A stretch of 36,026 nucleotides of DNA from Solirubrobacteraceae bacterium (GTDB lineage: Bacteria > Actinomycetota > Thermoleophilia > Solirubrobacterales > Solirubrobacteraceae). The notes below the pieces were generated by a model. The model did not search any database and had not been told where the DNA came from. It saw only the letters and a list, made by a program, of their open reading frames with translations. Location of the stretch: NCBI GenBank assembly GCA_017882375.1, contig JADGPP010000031.1, positions 1-36,026 on the forward strand, in the 5' to 3' direction. The position numbers were made by a program, and so were the translations under genes. Position 1 is the stretch's first letter, and each line of letters opens with the position of its first letter. Below are positions 24,782 through 35,964 of this stretch, one piece after another.

Positions 24782-26407
24782 ATGAGACGCGCAGATCGGG
24801 GGATCGCCGACCTTTCGTCGCTGCGCGTGCGCGAAGCGACGATCGCCGCGGGCGTGTGGCTTTCCTACGTTCTCTGCGCAGCCGGCGCGCTGTACGTGGC
24901 GCTGACCTGGGACCGGCCCCACCGCTTGGTGATCGCCGGTCTGTGCGCGGCCGGCGTGGCGGCGAGCATCACCGTGTCGCTTCTGCCACGCGAACGCATC
25001 GTGCGCAGCCGCCTTCGCGAGGAGTTCTTCTTCGCTTGGAGCGTGCTCGACCTGCTGCTGATCGGGATGTTGACGATCGCCGATGGAGGCACGGGCAGCC
25101 CGCTCGCGCTGATCTTCTTCGTGCCGGTCGTCTTCGCCGCCATGTCGTATCCGCTCGGGTCCGTGGCGGCGCTCGGAGGGTTGACGGTTGCGGGCTATCT
25201 CGCCGTGGCGGCGCTTGACGGGAGCGCCAGCTGGAGCTATCAGGCGCTGTTCGCCGTCGTGCTGCTGTGCACCGGAGCGATGAGCGCCTTTCAGGCGAGA
25301 AACCACGACCGCCAGCGCATCGCCCTCTCGCACATCTCACGCGTGGATCCGCTGACGGGCTGTCTCAATCGCCGTGGCTTCGAGGAGCGCGCGGTCGCGG
25401 AGATCAGCGTGGCGGCGCGGCGCTGCAGCCAGGGTGCGGTGCTGCTGCTCGACATCGATCACTTCAAGCCGATCAACGACCGCTACGGGCACGCCGCCGG
25501 CGACGAGCTGCTGTGCTGGGTCGTGCAGACGCTGCGCAGCGTCGTCCGCCCGGCCGACTCGATCGGGCGCCTCGGAGGAGACGAGTTCGCCGTGCTGTTC
25601 GCCGAGATGGCGCCGGCGGATGCGCTGGAGTGCGCGGAGCGGATCAAGCACGCGCTGAGCGAGCGCGCGCCATCGTCGATCGGCATCGCCACCTTCCCGC
25701 TGGACGGCGCGACGCTCGACGAGCTGGCGCGCCAGGCCGATCTGCGGCTGTACTCCTCGCGCGACGGGCGCCAGGCCCCGGACGCGACGGCGCCGACCGA
25801 GCGACTCAGCTGGGCGGCGACGCTCGCGCACGTGATCGACCTGCGCATGGACGCCGAGCACGAGCACTCGCGGGCGGTCGGCGACTGGGCCGTGGCGATC
25901 GCGCAGCGCCTCGGCTGGGAGCCCGCCGGCCTGGGGATGCTGCGCATCGCGGCGATGCTGCACGACGTGGGGATGATCGGGGTTCCCGAGCAGATCCTGC
26001 GCAAGCCCGGTCCGCTCGCGGCCGAGGAGCTGGCGACGGTCCGCGGACACACCGACAGGGGCGCGGAGATGGTCGCGCAGATCGAGGGCCTGGAGACGAT
26101 CGTCCCGTGGATCAGGCACTCGCACGAGAGCTTTGACGGCTCCGGCTACCCCGACGGGCTGAGCGGCGAGGCGATCCCCCAGGCCGCGCGCATTCTGCTC
26201 GTAGCCGACGCCTTCGACGCAATCACCAGCAGGCGCCCGTACCGCACGCCGCTGTCGTGCGCCGAGGCCTGCCGGGAGCTGCGCGGGCACGCCGGCACGC
26301 AGTTCGACCCGGCGTGCGTGGAGGCGCTCGTGTCCCATCTGAAGCCGCGCTCGGCGACGCGCGCAAGCGTCGTCGCGTCACACGCGCAGGGCGCCTGGCG
26401 CAGCTAG
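24782..26407 (+). CDS. Membrane GGDEF + HD-GYP domain protein (cyclic-di-GMP turnover)
   Basis: This 541-residue protein has about six membrane segments (~20-170), a GGDEF domain (~185-330) and an HD-GYP domain (~345-520). The cyclase motif GGDEF is intact at 265-269, and an inhibitory I-site RPAD lies five residues before it (256-259), so synthesis of c-di-GMP with product inhibition is expected. The phosphodiesterase half keeps HD (394-395) and GYP (455-457), but HDxGK reads HDVGM and the usual HHE reads SHE (RHSHESFDGSGYP), removing one commonly cited metal ligand. Degradation may therefore be altered. Both activities in one chain imply a switchable enzyme or a degenerate half acting as sensor. 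The ATG at 24782 gives the complete first helix. Confidence 0.92.
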   Translation: MRRADRGIADLSSLRVREATIAAGVWLSYVLCAAGALYVALTWDRPHRLVIAGLCAAGVAASITVSLLPRERIVRSRLREEFFFAWSVLDLLLIGMLTIADGGTGSPLALIFFVPVVFAAMSYPLGSVAALGGLTVAGYLAVAALDGSASWSYQALFAVVLLCTGAMSAFQARNHDRQRIALSHISRVDPLTGCLNRRGFEERAVAEISVAARRCSQGAVLLLDIDHFKPINDRYGHAAGDELLCWVVQTLRSVVRPADSIGRLGGDEFAVLFAEMAPADALECAERIKHALSERAPSSIGIATFPLDGATLDELARQADLRLYSSRDGRQAPDATAPTERLSWAATLAHVIDLRMDAEHEHSRAVGDWAVAIAQRLGWEPAGLGMLRIAAMLHDVGMIGVPEQILRKPGPLAAEELATVRGHTDRGAEMVAQIEGLETIVPWIRHSHESFDGSGYPDGLSGEAIPQAARILLVADAFDAITSRRPYRTPLSCAEACRELRGHAGTQFDPACVEALVSHLKPRSATRASVVASHAQGAWRS

Positions 26408-26408
26408 T

Positions 26409-27158
26409 GTGCCCGGCCAGATGCAGGACCTGAACTTCGAAATCACCCAGCACTTCCTCGACGATCGCGGGCAGCGCGCGGGCTTCATCCTGCTGGGCTG
26501 CTTCCTCGGCGCGTTCCTGTTCATCCGCACGAGCGCGCGGATGATCCGCAGCCCCAAATTCGCCTGGTGGCCGGGCAGCGTGAAGACCAAGAGCGGCCTG
26601 CACCTGCATCACCTCGTCTGGGGAATCTGCCTGATGATGAGCAGCGGCTTTCTCAACTTCGTGCTCAAGCCGGGCAGTCCGTGGTCGGAGGTGCTCGCCG
26701 CGGCGTTCGGCATCGGCGCCGGTTTGACGCTCGACGAGTTCGCGCTGTGGGTGCGCCTGGAAGACGTCTACTGGTCCCAGGAGGGGCGGATCTCGCTGGA
26801 CGCCGTCGTCGTCGCGACGCTGCTCGGGGGAATGATCGTGCTCGGGCTTGCGCCGTTCGACCTGTCCAGCCAAGGAGGCTCGATCGGCTCGCTCGTCGTG
26901 GCGGTGCTGATCGACATCGTGCTCTCGGCCCTGGCGATCCTCAAGGGCAAGCCGCTGCTCGGCCTGATCGGGATCTTCGTCCCGCCGGTATCGCTGGTCG
27001 GAGCCATCCGCCTGGCCTCGCCGACGTCGCCGTGGGCGCGGCGACGCTACGCGCCCGACGGCAGGAAAATGGCCGAGTCGCGCTCGCGCTTTGCGCGTAT
27101 GCGAAAACGGCGGCGATGGCTCAGCGACGCGATCGGCGGGACGCCCTCGGCGCAGTAG
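26409..27158 (+). CDS. Polytopic membrane protein of unknown function
   Basis: A ~249-residue protein with about five hydrophobic segments and a basic, Arg-rich C-terminal tail (~210-240). Conserved-looking polar residues sit inside or near membrane segments: GLHLHHLVWG (~63-72), then LTLDEFALWVRLEDVYW (~104-120). The cluster of His, Asp and Glu could bind a metal, but I recognise no family. A GTG at 26409 and an ATG at 26421 are both possible starts. TAGTGT (26405-26410), which overlaps the upstream stop codon, sits 10 nt before the ATG and favours the shorter form with independent leaderless transcription. It follows the c-di-GMP gene without a gap, so co-transcription is also possible. Confidence 0.75.
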   Translation: MPGQMQDLNFEITQHFLDDRGQRAGFILLGCFLGAFLFIRTSARMIRSPKFAWWPGSVKTKSGLHLHHLVWGICLMMSSGFLNFVLKPGSPWSEVLAAAFGIGAGLTLDEFALWVRLEDVYWSQEGRISLDAVVVATLLGGMIVLGLAPFDLSSQGGSIGSLVVAVLIDIVLSALAILKGKPLLGLIGIFVPPVSLVGAIRLASPTSPWARRRYAPDGRKMAESRSRFARMRKRRRWLSDAIGGTPSAQ

Positions 27159-27161
27159 ATT
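27156..27161 (+). promoter_or_regulatory. Putative leaderless -10 element (TAGATT) for the Cys-protein/ligase/amidohydrolase operon
   Basis: TAGATT overlaps the stop codon of the upstream membrane gene and ends 7 nt before the ATG at 27169. The overlap with a stop codon adds some chance of coincidence. Confidence 0.4.
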
Positions 27162-27168
27162 GCGGTCC

Positions 27169-28002
27169 ATGGACAGGACCGCACAGCTCGATCTGATGCT
27201 GCTGGCTGGGTCGCGCGCGCTGCTGCGAGCACATGCGCACGAGCTCCCCCAGCGCGACGATCTGTGTGGCGCCTTCTGCGCAGCGCTGGCGCTGCGCGCC
27301 GCCGGCGTCGAACGGTGGCGCCAGGAGCCGGTCGACCAGGACGCCGTGGCGCGGGCCGCTGGCACGGTCGTCTCGCGCGTGCCCGATCTCGCCTCCCTGC
27401 CCAACGGCGAGAGCGGCCGGCGCGACTATCGCATCACCCCCCCGCTTATCGACGATGCGGCCGTGTCGGGAACCAACTGCGCCGGCGTCGTCGCGGCGCT
27501 CGGCGAGCTCTCCGGCAAGAGCCTCGTGGCGATCCCCTACGCCGGACCGTGGACTGCGCCTGCGCTCGACGGCCTGTTCGATCTCCTGGCCGCGCTCGAC
27601 CACGCGACAGCGCTGATCGCAAACGTCGCCACAAGGCATCTATGGGGCGGCGCCCCACGCGCGGATCAGCTGCTCGACTACCTGCTCGAGGGCGCCGACG
27701 ACGGCCCGCCGCCCGACTGGAACGTCGGGCACTTCGTGTGCGTGGTCGCGCGCACGCGCGGGCCCGGGGGAAGCGTGTACGCGATCGCCGACACGTATCC
27801 GTCGCTCGGGCGTGGCGGCGTCCACGTCCAGCCGCGCGAGCGCCTCGCGCGGGCGTTGCAGCGTCCCGGCATGGCGCCCGGCGGCATGATCGCCGTAGTC
27901 GCAGACGCCGACGCGCCGGCCGTGCGCAGCGGCGCGCAGTCGCTTGGCCTGCTCGAGGGCATCTGGGACAACGGCTCGGTTACGGCCGAGACGCTGCCGT
28001 GA
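27169..28002 (+). CDS. Putative cysteine-hydrolase-like protein of unknown family (Cys-His-Asp pattern)
   Basis: I do not firmly recognise this 277-residue protein; it may belong to an actinobacterial DUF such as DUF6885. It shows an ordered pattern like papain/C39-fold hydrolases: cysteine C33 at the start of a helix (QRDDLCGAFCAALAL), histidine H188 (NVGHFVCVVA) beginning a strand, and aspartate D208 (YAIADTYPSLG) on the next strand. No signal peptide or membrane segment is present, so it should be cytoplasmic. The ATG at 27169 is preferred because a TAGATT element lies 7 nt upstream and the in-frame extension is Arg-rich. The stop overlaps the glutamine-synthetase-like gene as GTGA, so the products are probably made in fixed ratio. 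Catalytic activity is an inference from residue order only. Confidence 0.75.
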   Translation: MDRTAQLDLMLLAGSRALLRAHAHELPQRDDLCGAFCAALALRAAGVERWRQEPVDQDAVARAAGTVVSRVPDLASLPNGESGRRDYRITPPLIDDAAVSGTNCAGVVAALGELSGKSLVAIPYAGPWTAPALDGLFDLLAALDHATALIANVATRHLWGGAPRADQLLDYLLEGADDGPPPDWNVGHFVCVVARTRGPGGSVYAIADTYPSLGRGGVHVQPRERLARALQRPGMAPGGMIAVVADADAPAVRSGAQSLGLLEGIWDNGSVTAETLP

Positions 28003-29309
28003 GCGCGAGCGGGCTCGTCGCGCTGGTCTGCTGCGACCTCGGCGCGATCGTGCGCGGTCGCTCGCTGCCCGCCTCCGAGCTCGCCGCGCACGCAGACTGC
28101 GGCGTGGGCTGGGTGCCGGCCAACCAAGCGCTCACGCCGATCGGAACGCTGGCCGAGCCCAATCCCTTCGGCTCGACCGGCGATCTGCGCCTGCTGCCCG
28201 ACCTGGATACGCATGTGCGCGTGGCGGCGCCCAACGACGCGAGCGCGCTTGAGCTCGTGCTCTGCGACATCGTGCAGACCGACGGGCAAACGTGGGAGTG
28301 CTGCCCGCGGGGCTTCCTGCGCGACGGCCTGCAGCAGTTGCGGGCGCAGACCGGCCTTCGCGTCGTGGCGAGCTTCGAGCACGAGTTTCAGCTGCTCGGC
28401 GACGAGCCGTTGGCGCTGCCGTTCTCACTGGAGGCGCAACGGCGCGCCGAGCCGTTTGCCTCGCAGGTCATGGCCGCGCTGGGCGAGGCCGGGGCGGCGC
28501 CCGAGCGCTTCATGCCCGAGTACGCCGCCCACCAGTTCGAGATTCCCGTCGCGCCAGCCGACGGGCTCGCGGCTGCCGACCGTGCGGTCGTGCTGCGCGA
28601 GGTCGTCCGCGAGATCGCCCGCCGCAACGGAGCACGTGCGACATTCACGCCACTGCTGGACCCCGCCCAGGCGGGCAACGGCGTGCACATCCACCTCAGC
28701 CTGCTCGACGACGACGGGCGCGCGGCGCTGTATGACTCCTCTCGCCCGGCCTGCCTCAGCGACCTGGGCGCCAGCTTCGCCGCCGGAGTCCTGGCGCACG
28801 CTGACGCGCTCAGCGCGATCTGTGCGCCGAGCCCCGCCTCGGCGCAGCGGCTGTCTCCGCATCACTGGAGCGCGGGGGCGGCGTGCCTGGGGCTGCGCAA
28901 CCGGGAAGCCCTGCTGCGCATCCCGCCGCTGGTCGTGTCGCTGGGCGAGCCGGGGCCACAGCTGCGCCTGGAGTACCGCGGCGCCGACGCTGCGGCGAAC
29001 CCGTACCTGGCGCTCGGCGCGATCGTGCGTGCGGGGCTCGACGGCCTGCGCCGCGAGCTCCCACCGCCGCCGATCCTCGAGGACGACCCCGCCTTGCTCG
29101 ACAAGGCCGCGGCCGCCCGCCACCGCGTCGGCGGACTGCCGCCCTCGCTGCAAGATGCGCTGGACGCGCTCGCGCGCGATGAGAACGCGCGCGCCTGGAT
29201 GACGCCGCTGATGTACGAGGCCTACGTGTCGGTCAAGCGCGCGGAGATCGCCGCGGCAGCCGACGAGGAGCTGCACGAGACGTGCGGGCGCTATGCCGGG
29301 ATCTACTGA
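27999..29309 (+). CDS. Glutamine-synthetase-like ligase (GlnA-related, probably not housekeeping GS)
   Basis: This 436-residue protein has the glutamine synthetase catalytic domain. Visible active-site groups: E127 and E129 in SFEHEFQLL, E174 and E181 in PEYAAHQFEI, H230 and H232 in NGVHIHLSL, R307 in LRNREALLRI and E325/R327 in RLEYRGADAAANPYLALG. The N-terminal domain (~1-110) is short and divergent, and the adenylylation-loop tyrosine region of housekeeping GlnA is not recognisable. This fits the gamma-glutamyl-amine ligases (PuuA, GlnA3/GlnA4-like) more than ammonia-assimilating GS. The GTG at 27999 overlaps the Cys-protein stop (GTGA), and the end overlaps the amidohydrolase gene by 17 bp. 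The amine or amino acid substrate is unknown. Confidence 0.9.
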   Translation: MSASGLVALVCCDLGAIVRGRSLPASELAAHADCGVGWVPANQALTPIGTLAEPNPFGSTGDLRLLPDLDTHVRVAAPNDASALELVLCDIVQTDGQTWECCPRGFLRDGLQQLRAQTGLRVVASFEHEFQLLGDEPLALPFSLEAQRRAEPFASQVMAALGEAGAAPERFMPEYAAHQFEIPVAPADGLAAADRAVVLREVVREIARRNGARATFTPLLDPAQAGNGVHIHLSLLDDDGRAALYDSSRPACLSDLGASFAAGVLAHADALSAICAPSPASAQRLSPHHWSAGAACLGLRNREALLRIPPLVVSLGEPGPQLRLEYRGADAAANPYLALGAIVRAGLDGLRRELPPPPILEDDPALLDKAAAARHRVGGLPPSLQDALDALARDENARAWMTPLMYEAYVSVKRAEIAAAADEELHETCGRYAGIY

Positions 29310-30480
29310 CCCGCTGCTGGCCAGGCTGCTGGAGCTGATCGACGGACAGCTCGCGCAAGCGGTGCAGCTGCGCCATCGCCTGCACGAGCAGCCCGAGCTG
29401 GCCCACCACGAGCTGCGCACGGCGGCGATCGTCGCCGACGCGCTGCCGGTTGCGTGCACCACTGTGGCCGGCACGGGACGGATCGCGCTGATCGGGCCGG
29501 ACTCGGGCAGCGTGCTCGCGATCCGCGCCGAGCTCGACGGACTGCCGATCCACGAGCGCACAAACGCGCCCTTCAGCGCCGGCGGCGAGACGATGCATGC
29601 GTGCGGACACGACGTGCACATGGCGGCGCTGGTGGCTCTGGCGCGCGCTGCACACACGCTCGCCGGCGACCTGCCGGCGCCGCTGCTGGCGATCTTCCAG
29701 CCCAGCGAGGAGGCTTTTCCGTCGGGCGCCGAGCAGCTGGCGCGCGAGGAGCTTGCGGCCTGGGCGCCGGCGGCGGTCCTCGCGGCGCACGTACATCCGG
29801 AGTTGCCGTGGGGCGCCGTCGCGCTCGACGTGGGGGCGGTCAACGCGTCAAGCGACTCGGTGGAGATCGTCGTCGAGGGCGAGCCCTCCCATGGCGCCTA
29901 CCCGCACCACGGGCGCGACCCGATCCTGGCGATCGCGCAGATCGTCGTCGCCCTGCACGCGCTGGCGACGCGGCGGATCGACCCGCTCGCACCGACCGTG
30001 CTCAACGTCGGCGTGCTCGAAGGCGGCGGGGCCGAGAACGTGATCCCCCCGCACGCGCGGGCTCGCGCGACCATTCGCGCGCACCGTCCGCAGGATCGCG
30101 CGGCGCTGCGCGAGCTCGTCGCGGAGGTCGTCGTCGGCGTGGCCGCCGCGCACGGGTGCCGCGGTAGCGCTGAGCTCGTGCCGGGCGAGCCTGCGCTGGA
30201 GAACGACCCGCGGATCGTTGCGCGCACGCGCGCGCTGCTGGCACAGGCGGGTTTCGTGGCCGCTCGCGAGTGGCGCTCGTGCGGCTCGGACGATTTCTCC
30301 TTCTACGGCGAGATCGCACCGGTCGCGATGGCCTTCGTCGGCCTCGACGGTGCGCCGGGCTTCAGCGCGCGACCGCTGCACCACCCCGAGCTGCTGCCGC
30401 CGGACGAGGCCGTCGGCGCAATCGCGCGCGCACAGGCGATCCTCTACGTCGGCGCCGCGGAGTCACTTACAGCCGATTAG
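29293..30480 (+). CDS. M20D-type amidohydrolase (hippurate / IAA-amino-acid hydrolase-like)
   Basis: This 395-residue metallohydrolase shows the M20D motifs: LHEQPELAHHE (~30-40), IRAELDGLPIHE (~77-88), the metal-binding MHACGHDVHM (101-110 with C104 and H106), FQPSEEAFPSGA (E139/E140, catalytic base and ligand), AAHVHPELPWG (~162-172) and GGAENVIPPHARA in the dimerisation domain region. Relatives cleave N-acyl or aryl amides of amino acids in the cytoplasm. The ATG at 29293 lies inside the ligase gene, a 17-bp overlap typical of one operon. With the ligase upstream it could remove, edit or recycle the amide the ligase makes. The precise substrate is not deducible. Confidence 0.93.
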   Translation: MPGSTDPLLARLLELIDGQLAQAVQLRHRLHEQPELAHHELRTAAIVADALPVACTTVAGTGRIALIGPDSGSVLAIRAELDGLPIHERTNAPFSAGGETMHACGHDVHMAALVALARAAHTLAGDLPAPLLAIFQPSEEAFPSGAEQLAREELAAWAPAAVLAAHVHPELPWGAVALDVGAVNASSDSVEIVVEGEPSHGAYPHHGRDPILAIAQIVVALHALATRRIDPLAPTVLNVGVLEGGGAENVIPPHARARATIRAHRPQDRAALRELVAEVVVGVAAAHGCRGSAELVPGEPALENDPRIVARTRALLAQAGFVAAREWRSCGSDDFSFYGEIAPVAMAFVGLDGAPGFSARPLHHPELLPPDEAVGAIARAQAILYVGAAESLTAD

Positions 30481-30496
30481 CTGGACCAATGTTGCG

Positions 30497-30811
30497 CTAT
30501 CCGCCCAGCGGCGAGGGCGGGATGCGCGGCTCACCGCGCACCTCGGGGATGCGCATCATCAGCTCGTCGAGAAAGCACCACGACCAGTCTTCGCGCGGCT
30601 CGATCGAGCGGATGATCGGATGGCCGCTGGAGTGGCTGTGCGCGCTGGCGTGTCGATTCGGCGAGTCGTCGCAGCAGCCGACGTGGCCGCACTCCAGGCA
30701 GATGCGCAGGTGCAACCAGGGATCGCCGGTTTGCAGACAGTCCTCACAGCCCTCTACGGCGTCGGGCAGCTCGGTGACGTGAACGTGATCGAGGTGCGTG
30801 CAGCCAGGCAT
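30497..30811 (-). CDS. UBP-type zinc finger domain protein
   Basis: This 104-residue protein is essentially one ZnF-UBP domain. Pattern: C4 and H6 near the start (MPGCTHLDHV), CEDC, CLECGHVGCCDDS, then spaced histidines in HASAHSHSSGHPI. This is the ligand layout of the eukaryotic ubiquitin C-terminal-binding finger, but in bacteria without ubiquitin its ligand is unknown. The glycine-poor C-terminal tail is short. The ATG at 30811 has a good Shine-Dalgarno (AAGGA, 6 nt upstream), so this gene is translated from a normal leader. It converges on the amidohydrolase gene with a 16-bp gap. Confidence 0.9.
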   Translation of the reverse strand: MPGCTHLDHVHVTELPDAVEGCEDCLQTGDPWLHLRICLECGHVGCCDDSPNRHASAHSHSSGHPIIRSIEPREDWSWCFLDELMMRIPEVRGEPRIPPSPLGG

Positions 30812-34602: not shown

Positions 34603-35964
34603 GGCTCTCGGAATCCTCGGTTCCCCTCGTCATCTGGGGGTGAATCATCGGTGAGGAAGGCTGATCTGGATGCCCGAGCAGCAGAGGTAGATCATGGCGA
34701 TCAGGGCGTCTGCGGAGTGAAAGCCGTAGGCGCGGTGTGAGAGCAGGCGGATCTTGCTGTTCAGGCCCTCCAGGCGCCCGTTTGAGAGCCCGAGTTCGAT
34801 CGCGGCGAGTACGCCGGCCTTGTGCTTGCGGATCGTGCGGGCGAGCTTCACGAACGGTGTGAGCTTCGATCTGGATGCCCAGGAGAGCCACGCGTCGAGC
34901 TGCTCGCGTGCCTGGTGGCGGGGGACGCGGTAGACCCATCGCAGCTCGTGCAACAGCAGGAACGCGCGGTAGAGGCGCTTGTTGGTCTGCTGCACCTCGG
35001 CGAGGGTGGCGAGCTGACGGGCGGTCTGGTTTGAGGGGTCCTTGATCAGCGAGTAGCGCGCGCCCTTGATCCACGTGCCGTGCTTGGTCGCCGAGCGCCC
35101 GTGCTCGTTGTACTCGGCGCGGCGAACCTGGTCGGTCGCCCGGCCGCCCAACTGCACCACATGGAACGGATCGAACGCGACCTGCGCGTCGGGCACCGAT
35201 GCCTTGATCGCCTTCTCATAGCCGGCGCTCATGTCGATCGAGACCGCCCGGATCGAGGACTTCCGCTGCTCGGTGAGCTGATCGAAGAACCCCTGCAAGG
35301 TGGCGGCGTTGCGGCCGGGCGCCGCCCACACCACACCGCCCTTCTCATGGTCAGCGACACACGTCAGGAAGCGATGATCGGCGCCGTAGGAGATCTCGTC
35401 CACCCCCAGCCTCACGAGCCCGTCGAGACGACCCTCATCGAGGTGGTCGGCCACGACCCGCTCGGCGATCTTGCCGATCGAGGACCATGCGATGCGCAGC
35501 AGCCTGGTGATCTGCGTCTTGTTCATCTGCTGCGCAAGCCAGGCCGTGAGGTCCTCGAAGTCGCGCGTATACGGCGAGCCGGCGCGCGCCCACTGCACCG
35601 CCTCCGGTCGCTCGCCGCAGTCAGGGCAGCGCAGCCGTCGCAGCTCGCACTCGATGAAGCACCGGCAAGAGCCGAGATCCAGATGGCGCCAGCGCTTGAC
35701 GCGCCGATCCTTGATCTCCAGGCCGCGTGTTCCGCAGCCCGAGCACACCGGCGCGCGCCGACGCAGAGAGACCGTCACGATCACCCCCTCGCCGCTGAAC
35801 GCCACATCCTGGACCCAGGCTCCAGGGAGCCTGAGCATCCGGTTGAATGCAGTGCTGACACGCACGTCGTCCTCCTTCGCTGGCCGCTGATCTTTAGAAC
35901 AGCCAGCAGCCTGCCGGAGAGGACGGCTGCGTGTCGCTCAGCGCGTGCGCAACTTGCGAGAACC
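34603..35964 (-). mobile_element. ISL3-family insertion sequence, about 1.36 kb (ends tentative)
   Basis: The ends are proposed from a weak inverted repeat: GGCTCTCGGAA at 34603-34613 and, on the other strand, GGTTCTCGCAA at 35954-35964 (9 of 11 matching). The GG[CT]TCT start agrees with ISL3-family termini and the length fits one transposase gene. The bases flanking the proposed ends (AGTGCTAC and TTCCCGCC) do not form the 8-bp target duplication expected for this family, so the ends may be wrong or the element may have recombined. The last ~60 bp of the window lie outside it and show no complete gene. Confidence 0.55.
34645..35865 (-). CDS. ISL3 family transposase
   Basis: This 406-residue DDE transposase moves the ISL3-type element. 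An N-terminal zinc-binding region (C41, C44, C80, C83 in CSGCG and CPDCGERP) and a helix-turn-helix (~115-135) precede the catalytic domain. The acidic triad is D156 (LGVDEISYG), D211 (VSIDMSAGY) and E366 (LSNGRLEGLNSKIRLL). Family motifs FDPFHVVQL and HRAYGFHSADALIAMIYL are present. The protein is full length with no frameshift, so it may be active. The GTG at 35865 has a strong Shine-Dalgarno (AAGGAGG, 5 nt upstream). It is the only clear mobile gene in the window and supports the reading of the right end as accessory DNA. Confidence 0.95.
   Translation of the reverse strand: MRVSTAFNRMLRLPGAWVQDVAFSGEGVIVTVSLRRRAPVCSGCGTRGLEIKDRRVKRWRHLDLGSCRCFIECELRRLRCPDCGERPEAVQWARAGSPYTRDFEDLTAWLAQQMNKTQITRLLRIAWSSIGKIAERVVADHLDEGRLDGLVRLGVDEISYGADHRFLTCVADHEKGGVVWAAPGRNAATLQGFFDQLTEQRKSSIRAVSIDMSAGYEKAIKASVPDAQVAFDPFHVVQLGGRATDQVRRAEYNEHGRSATKHGTWIKGARYSLIKDPSNQTARQLATLAEVQQTNKRLYRAFLLLHELRWVYRVPRHQAREQLDAWLSWASRSKLTPFVKLARTIRKHKAGVLAAIELGLSNGRLEGLNSKIRLLSHRAYGFHSADALIAMIYLCCSGIQISLPHR

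Follow-up and report, generated by a model that had tools for sequence, protein, structure and literature searches.

We analysed a 36,026-nucleotide stretch of DNA (the window; contig JADGPP010000031.1, positions 1 to 36,026) from a Solirubrobacteraceae bacterium (assembly GCA_017882375.1). In the window, three overlapping genes encode a protein of the family DUF6885 (PF21819; protein 1), a ligase of the glutamine synthetase (GS) family (protein 2) and an M20D amidohydrolase (protein 3). These three genes form a real module. Bacteria rely on gamma-glutamyl tagging to use polyamines, ethanolamine and aromatic amines, and on balance the trio is probably a compact gamma-glutamylation module, in which the ligase would tag an amine, DUF6885 would act as a papain-fold amidase and M20D would cleave an amide of the N-acyl-amino-acid type. 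The trio would then belong among the gamma-glutamylation pathways, a known kind, with the papain-fold hydrolase partner as a new part. A preliminary description of the window had proposed that the cluster might make, edit or break down a gamma-glutamyl or acyl-amino-acid conjugate. Gene structure, families, residues, predicted fold, linkage and partner swapping were computed directly, and overall they support this interpretation; the actual reaction and substrate we infer.

Conserved linkage and exchange of partners

DUF6885, the orthologous ligase (at least 63% identity) and the orthologous M20D (at least 67%) are each found in the same 12 of 24 congeneric genomes. In the window all three are open reading frames on one strand, with high GC and normal GC at third codon positions (GC3). 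The overlaps of 4 bp between protein 1 and the ligase and of 17 bp between the ligase and M20D are present as the preliminary description had reported, and almost all the other genus loci that were read show them too, which is more than expected by chance. The two exceptions are start choices of the simple gene caller. The cluster had been placed at 27156-30480; these limits do contain the three genes, but the first start lies at 27169.

Conservation of the trio extends far outside this genome. DUF6885 was present in 22 of 399 genomes of the class and in 12 of 396 of the phylum, two samples that overlap. Outside the genus, an intact or near-intact GS-family gene lies directly beside DUF6885 in 15 of the 20 testable actinobacterial genomes, with about 0.008 such genes per 10 kb expected by chance. 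In one further genome of the 20 (L061), the GS-family gene lies 3 kb away from DUF6885. Both haloarchaeal (Haladaptatus) plasmids carry the ligase, DUF6885, an M20 enzyme, an amino-acid permease and a FluG-N-type amidohydrolase in one cluster. The genes are thus also linked in other families and in archaea, where their order and the partners differ, and DUF6885 is strongly tied to glutamate-tagging metabolism.

The partners of DUF6885 are exchanged between loci. When L052 was compared with L066, DUF6885 was 59% identical and M20D 71%, while any pair of ligases reached at most 34%. The DUF6885-linked ligases are spread over several well-separated branches, and two very distant M20 subfamilies (M20D and ArgE/DapE) are found beside DUF6885. 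Since glutamate is common to the swapped ligases and DUF6885 is conserved, DUF6885 would recognise the gamma-glutamyl half. It may act on this constant half of the conjugates like the PuuD-type hydrolases, but with a different fold.

The ligase resembles PA5508 and lacks the ammonia-site glutamate

Protein 2 matches Gln-synt_C (E = 3e-77) and Gln-synt_N_2 (E = 4e-24). Its N-terminal domain had been called divergent; it turned out to be the recognised Pfam domain Gln-synt_N_2. The other part of that claim, that the GS active-site residues are kept, was borne out for the metal and glutamate sites: in an alignment with E. coli GlnA, E129, E131, E212, E220, H269, R321, R339, E357 and R359 are all conserved. 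The ammonia-site Glu327 is replaced by Trp and Tyr179 by Pro. In the column of Asp50, where the alignment is less certain, the window ligase has Glu and a few others have Asp. Every DUF6885-linked ligase aligned has Trp or Phe in place of Glu327 and retains the metal and Glu sites of catalysis.

The closest solved structure is PA5508/PauA7 (4HPP, 374 bits), followed by true glutamine synthetases with 133 bits. The ligase is about 48% identical to PA5508 and only about 27% to PuuA, and its assignment as PuuA was rejected (298.4 bits against an equivalog cut-off of 650 in NF045547). PA5508 and GlnA4, two enzymes that glutamylate organic amines, are reported to have the change of Glu327 (PMC6529630). 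GoaS has been proposed as a name for such ligases (PMC11335346), and aromatic amines are preferred by the PA5508/GoaS-type enzymes (PMC6478659, PMC11335346). Because Glu327 is absent, as in PA5508 and PuuA, ammonia-only glutamine synthesis is unlikely, in line with the earlier suggestion of a ligase other than an ammonia-dependent GS. We predict from the sequence that protein 2 is a PA5508-type gamma-glutamyl-amine ligase and not a glutamine synthetase, and that it probably joins glutamate to an amine.

It is hardly credible that protein 2 is simply a glutamine synthetase paralogue of the ordinary kind and that its co-location with the other two genes is incidental inheritance within one genus. 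The protein does have the GS catalytic domain, and the loci of the genus are of common ancestry; however, Glu327 is lost and the linkage is seen in other families and in archaea with gene order and partners altered.

DUF6885 has a predicted papain-like fold and a conserved Cys-His-Asp site

A profile search showed that the Pfam DUF6885 match spans the whole of protein 1 (E = 7e-74). No paper in the literature searched mentions the family. To describe its fold, we used an AlphaFold2 model built on a shallow alignment of 11 sequences (pLDDT 83, pTM 0.85), and the fold is predicted to be papain-like. The best solved match to the model is the primitive phytochelatin synthase Alr0975 (VIA Z 15.5, 181 residues, root mean square deviation 3.0). 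It is followed by a lyase and then by the pseudomurein endoisopeptidase PeiR (13.6), staphopains and a C39-like enzyme, with Z of 11-14 for the PeiR, staphopain and C39-like enzymes. Foldseek agrees on the papain-like fold (E about 5e-4, probability 1.0). Sequence profiles linked DUF6885 to no solved structure at E up to 10, so the claim of the fold rests on the predicted model.

The preliminary description had noticed an ordered pattern of Cys33, His188 and Asp208 and a likeness to papain/C39 folds. The three residues are at these positions and are invariant among 11 close homologues, and in the model they take the papain arrangement, with a helix that begins at Cys33, a strand that begins at His188 and Asp208 directly behind the following strand. 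Gln28, five residues upstream of Cys33, occupies the position of the oxyanion Gln in papain-like enzymes. A wider alignment of 29 homologues reaches about 24-30% identity and extends from Actinobacteria to one haloarchaeon; in it, Gln28 and Cys33 are present in all 27 rows with a residue in the column, and His188 and Asp208 in all 29. DUF6885 thus combines the predicted fold and the conserved order of Gln, Cys, His and Asp of the papain-like enzymes (Pfam clan Peptidase_CA). The active site is very probably Cys33/His188/Asp208, and the protein would be a hydrolase.

The M20D amidohydrolase

The M20D enzyme is intact, as had been claimed. It scores 241.6 bits with TIGR01891, where the subfamily cut-off is 153.75, and its zinc-site pattern is complete (Cys104, His106, Glu139/140, His166 and His363/364). 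The metal-ligand motifs CGHD, EE, H and the C-terminal H are present in an alignment with YxeP, 4EWT and 6SLF. The protein aligns with YxeP, with the plant indole-3-acetic acid (IAA)-amino-acid hydrolase ILL2 and with N-acyl-glutamine aminoacylase. M20D relatives cleave IAA-amino acids and N-acyl-glutamine. The role of M20D in the trio is presumably of the same type, and both DUF6885 and M20D probably cut bonds of the glutamate-tag type.

Proposed mechanism and alternatives

In the first step, the PA5508/GoaS-type ligase would form a gamma-glutamyl amide by linking, at the expense of ATP, the gamma-carboxyl of glutamate with an organic amine. In the second step, for which the fold and residues are predicted and the reaction is deduced from linkage, Cys33 of DUF6885, activated by His188/Asp208 and with Gln28 at the oxyanion hole, would bind the gamma-glutamyl group, or some other acyl group, as a thioester. 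The acyl group would then be passed to water or, possibly, to another amine. DUF6885 would thereby do the job of the unrelated class-I glutamine amidotransferase (GATase) PuuD in E. coli and the one proposed for FGase-family enzymes in other systems. In the third step, M20D would cleave an amide of the N-acyl-amino-acid type. It may either free the amine-bearing substrate before tagging or split a gamma-glutamyl-amino-acid end product such as gamma-Glu-Gly. The gamma-glutamyl amidase activity, its substrate and this order of steps are what the linkage and the predicted site would suggest. More broadly, we tentatively propose, at somewhat less than an even chance, that DUF6885 represents a new class of gamma-glutamyl amidases or transferases with a papain fold. 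It would serve as a general un-tagging enzyme in Actinobacteria and haloarchaea, with interchangeable ligases and M20 hydrolases and often with a bacterial counterpart of the FluG amidohydrolase.

Several findings weigh against these proposals. Among the 20 genomes outside the genus, three have no ligase near DUF6885 (L049, L056 and L057) and another has only a ligase remnant (G507, locus L048). DUF6885 without an intact ligase nearby implies that its substrate need not come from a neighbouring ligase. All 24 genomes of the genus encode PuuD-like C26 proteins, whether they carry the trio or not. DUF6885 is therefore not required as the sole gamma-glutamyl hydrolase, and L058 and L059 hold DUF6885 and a PuuD-like protein in one cluster. 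The model was built on only 11 sequences, with residues 76-98 at low confidence, and the similarity to phytochelatin synthase is a likeness of fold only, at 11% identity.

The remnant in L048 (7801-8064), a one-contig genome, consists of the last fifth of the ligase gene and adjoins an intact DUF6885 gene. This suggests that DUF6885 can outlive its ligase. A role of DUF6885 as a stand-in for a missing PuuD in the genus was rejected in view of the C26/PuuD-like proteins in all 24 genomes; no FGase (PF05013) was found in the genome of the window. With hydrolases of its own, the trio is a system in addition to the PuuD-like proteins, which are encoded elsewhere in the genus genomes.

It is possible, though unlikely, that DUF6885 and/or M20D precede the ligase and release an amine or an amino acid from an N-acyl-amino acid, another amide or a peptide, which the ligase then tags with glutamate for storage, detoxification or breakdown. 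The ligase-free DUF6885 genes of L049, L056 and L057, which adjoin permeases, amidohydrolases, acetamidase or ADI/DDAH-like genes, fit this order somewhat, as do the substrates of the M20D relatives, and the authors of the FluG study propose an amidohydrolase that feeds the ligase (PMC6478659). However, DUF6885 is kept with ligases of several subfamilies, and if an enzyme ahead of the ligase recognised the amine side, it should vary along with the amine.

More doubtful still is a role of DUF6885 as a gamma-glutamyl transferase similar to transpeptidases. It would hand the gamma-glutamyl or acyl moiety of the ligase product on to a second acceptor, and the module would then make a metabolite and not degrade one. 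The best solved fold match, phytochelatin synthase, forms its acyl enzyme from glutathione, acyltransferases do occur in the papain-like superfamily (PMC10318531), and the trio in the window is accompanied by neither an oxidase nor a transporter. Yet many other DUF6885 clusters have catabolic-type neighbours (APC permeases, aminotransferases and aldehyde dehydrogenase), and conserved acceptor-making genes are lacking.

Neighbours in other genomes and known systems

Beside DUF6885 in other genomes we found APC permeases, class-III aminotransferases, GATase/PuuD-like proteins, a GntR regulator, aldehyde dehydrogenase and short-chain dehydrogenases/reductases (SDRs). Several clusters also contain an amidohydrolase whose sole solved relative by sequence is 2QPX. 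This structure is LSEI_0440, a bacterial protein able to replace the N-terminal half of the fungal FluG, and the C-terminal half of FluG can be replaced by PA5508 (PMC6478659). In L052, the operon runs permease, ligase, DUF6885, ligase, M20D and FluG-N-type amidohydrolase. The permeases, class-III aminotransferases, GATase/PuuD-like proteins and FluG-N-type amidohydrolases fit amine metabolism and strengthen the gamma-glutamylation reading put forward in the preliminary description. As it had also pointed out, no Puu-type oxidation or transport genes accompany the trio in the window; a transporter and an oxidase are both linked to DUF6885 in other genomes.

The hydrolase beside PA5508-like ligases differs by lineage. 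On the alphaproteobacterial plasmids L070 and L071, such a ligase lies between an isochorismatase-type cysteine hydrolase and a gene of the N-formylglutamate amidohydrolase family, which has been proposed to hydrolyse gamma-glutamylglycine in an ethanolamine pathway (PMC6529630). Thus, lineages differ in the fold that occupies the hydrolase position, and DUF6885 appears to be one such occupant. Both plasmids also carry MurR/RpiR regulators, and L071 an ArgE/DapE deacylase. On a Terrarubrum plasmid (L069:5044-7305), a protein annotated with a SIS domain has a C-terminal part that is a PA5508-like ligase, apparently a fusion.

By analogy, the trio would work like the E. coli Puu pathway in its ligase-plus-hydrolase core. 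Both pair an ATP-dependent gamma-glutamyl ligase without the ammonia-site Glu with a cysteine amidase (a predicted role for DUF6885), and several DUF6885 clusters share the APC permease and class-III aminotransferase with Puu. In contrast, the cysteine enzyme of the trio is DUF6885 with a predicted papain fold and that of Puu is the class-I GATase PuuD. No puuB/puuC-like genes lie beside the trio, while some of the remaining Puu-type genes occur in other DUF6885 clusters. The trio as a Puu pathway was rejected, as it has only a ligase and two hydrolases and no oxidation or transport genes.

PA5508/PauA7 of Pseudomonas aeruginosa, the closest solved ligase, and the characterised GoaS enzymes NpaA1/AtdA1 have the change of Glu327 to Trp in common with protein 2. 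However, the aniline and naphthylamine systems use a GATase-like hydrolase (AtdA2/NpaA2) and a dioxygenase, whereas the trio has DUF6885 and M20D. FluG, a fungal amidohydrolase fused to a gamma-glutamyl ligase, is matched by the DUF6885 clusters that pair a ligase with the amidohydrolase related to 2QPX/LSEI_0440; unlike them, the trio in the window has no FluG-N-type amidohydrolase, and the FluG literature searched describes no papain-fold partner. Alr0975 (PF05023/C83) resembles the DUF6885 model in overall fold and acts on a gamma-glutamyl peptide via an acyl-enzyme, but its genomic setting is different. PF05023 matched neither protein 1, for which DUF6885 was the sole Pfam hit at E up to 1, nor further DUF6885 members at E up to 5, and no phytochelatin-synthase homologues for a profile comparison were found in 296 phylum genomes plus controls, by which their absence is not shown.

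With these results, the uncharacterised Pfam family DUF6885 can be given a predicted fold, a probable catalytic site and a place in metabolism. FluG points to a tagging role in fungal development whose metabolite is not known. If our proposal is true, DUF6885 would supply a missing step of FluG-type pathways, and a papain-fold hydrolase that travels with many amine ligases is a handle for finding their substrates.

Surroundings of the trio

The preliminary description had assumed one likely promoter shared by the three genes. This was not confirmed: no sigma-70-type promoter site was found for the trio. The preceding gene stops 10 bp ahead of the start of protein 1, and the trio of this genome could thus be part of a longer transcript. 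Among the relatives, several have the trio behind a divergent gene. The features of the window are listed in Table 1.

Table 1. The trio and other features of the window.
Feature	Position	Strand	Remarks
GGDEF and HD-type (HD_5) signalling protein	24782-26407	+	directly upstream of the membrane-protein-like gene
Membrane-protein-like gene	26421-27158		stop 10 bp before the start of protein 1
DUF6885 protein (PF21819), predicted papain-fold cysteine hydrolase	27169-28002	+	277 aa, ATG start
GoaS/PA5508-type gamma-glutamyl-amine ligase, predicted	27999-29309	+	436 aa, GTG start
M20D amidohydrolase	29293-30480	+	395 aa, ATG start
Small protein with UBP-type zinc finger (zf-UBP)	30497-30811	-	convergent with the M20D gene
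ISL3-family transposase	34645-35838	-	near the contig end

Five loci of the genus (L025, L030, L031, L033 and L034) carry acyl-CoA-dehydrogenase-like, MurL-like (UDP-MurNAc-L-Ala-L-Glu epimerase) and MurD genes upstream of DUF6885 and divergent from the trio, for example L025:3885-7939; this set is not beside the trio in the genome of the window. A peptidoglycan role suggested by the MurD-MurL neighbours was rejected, since they occur in only about half of the genus loci and do not accompany the trio here or in other lineages. In L026, L030, L032 and L034 a glyoxalase-family gene lies just upstream of the trio, and some of these loci have an F420H2-dependent quinone-reductase-like gene and an MFS transporter downstream.

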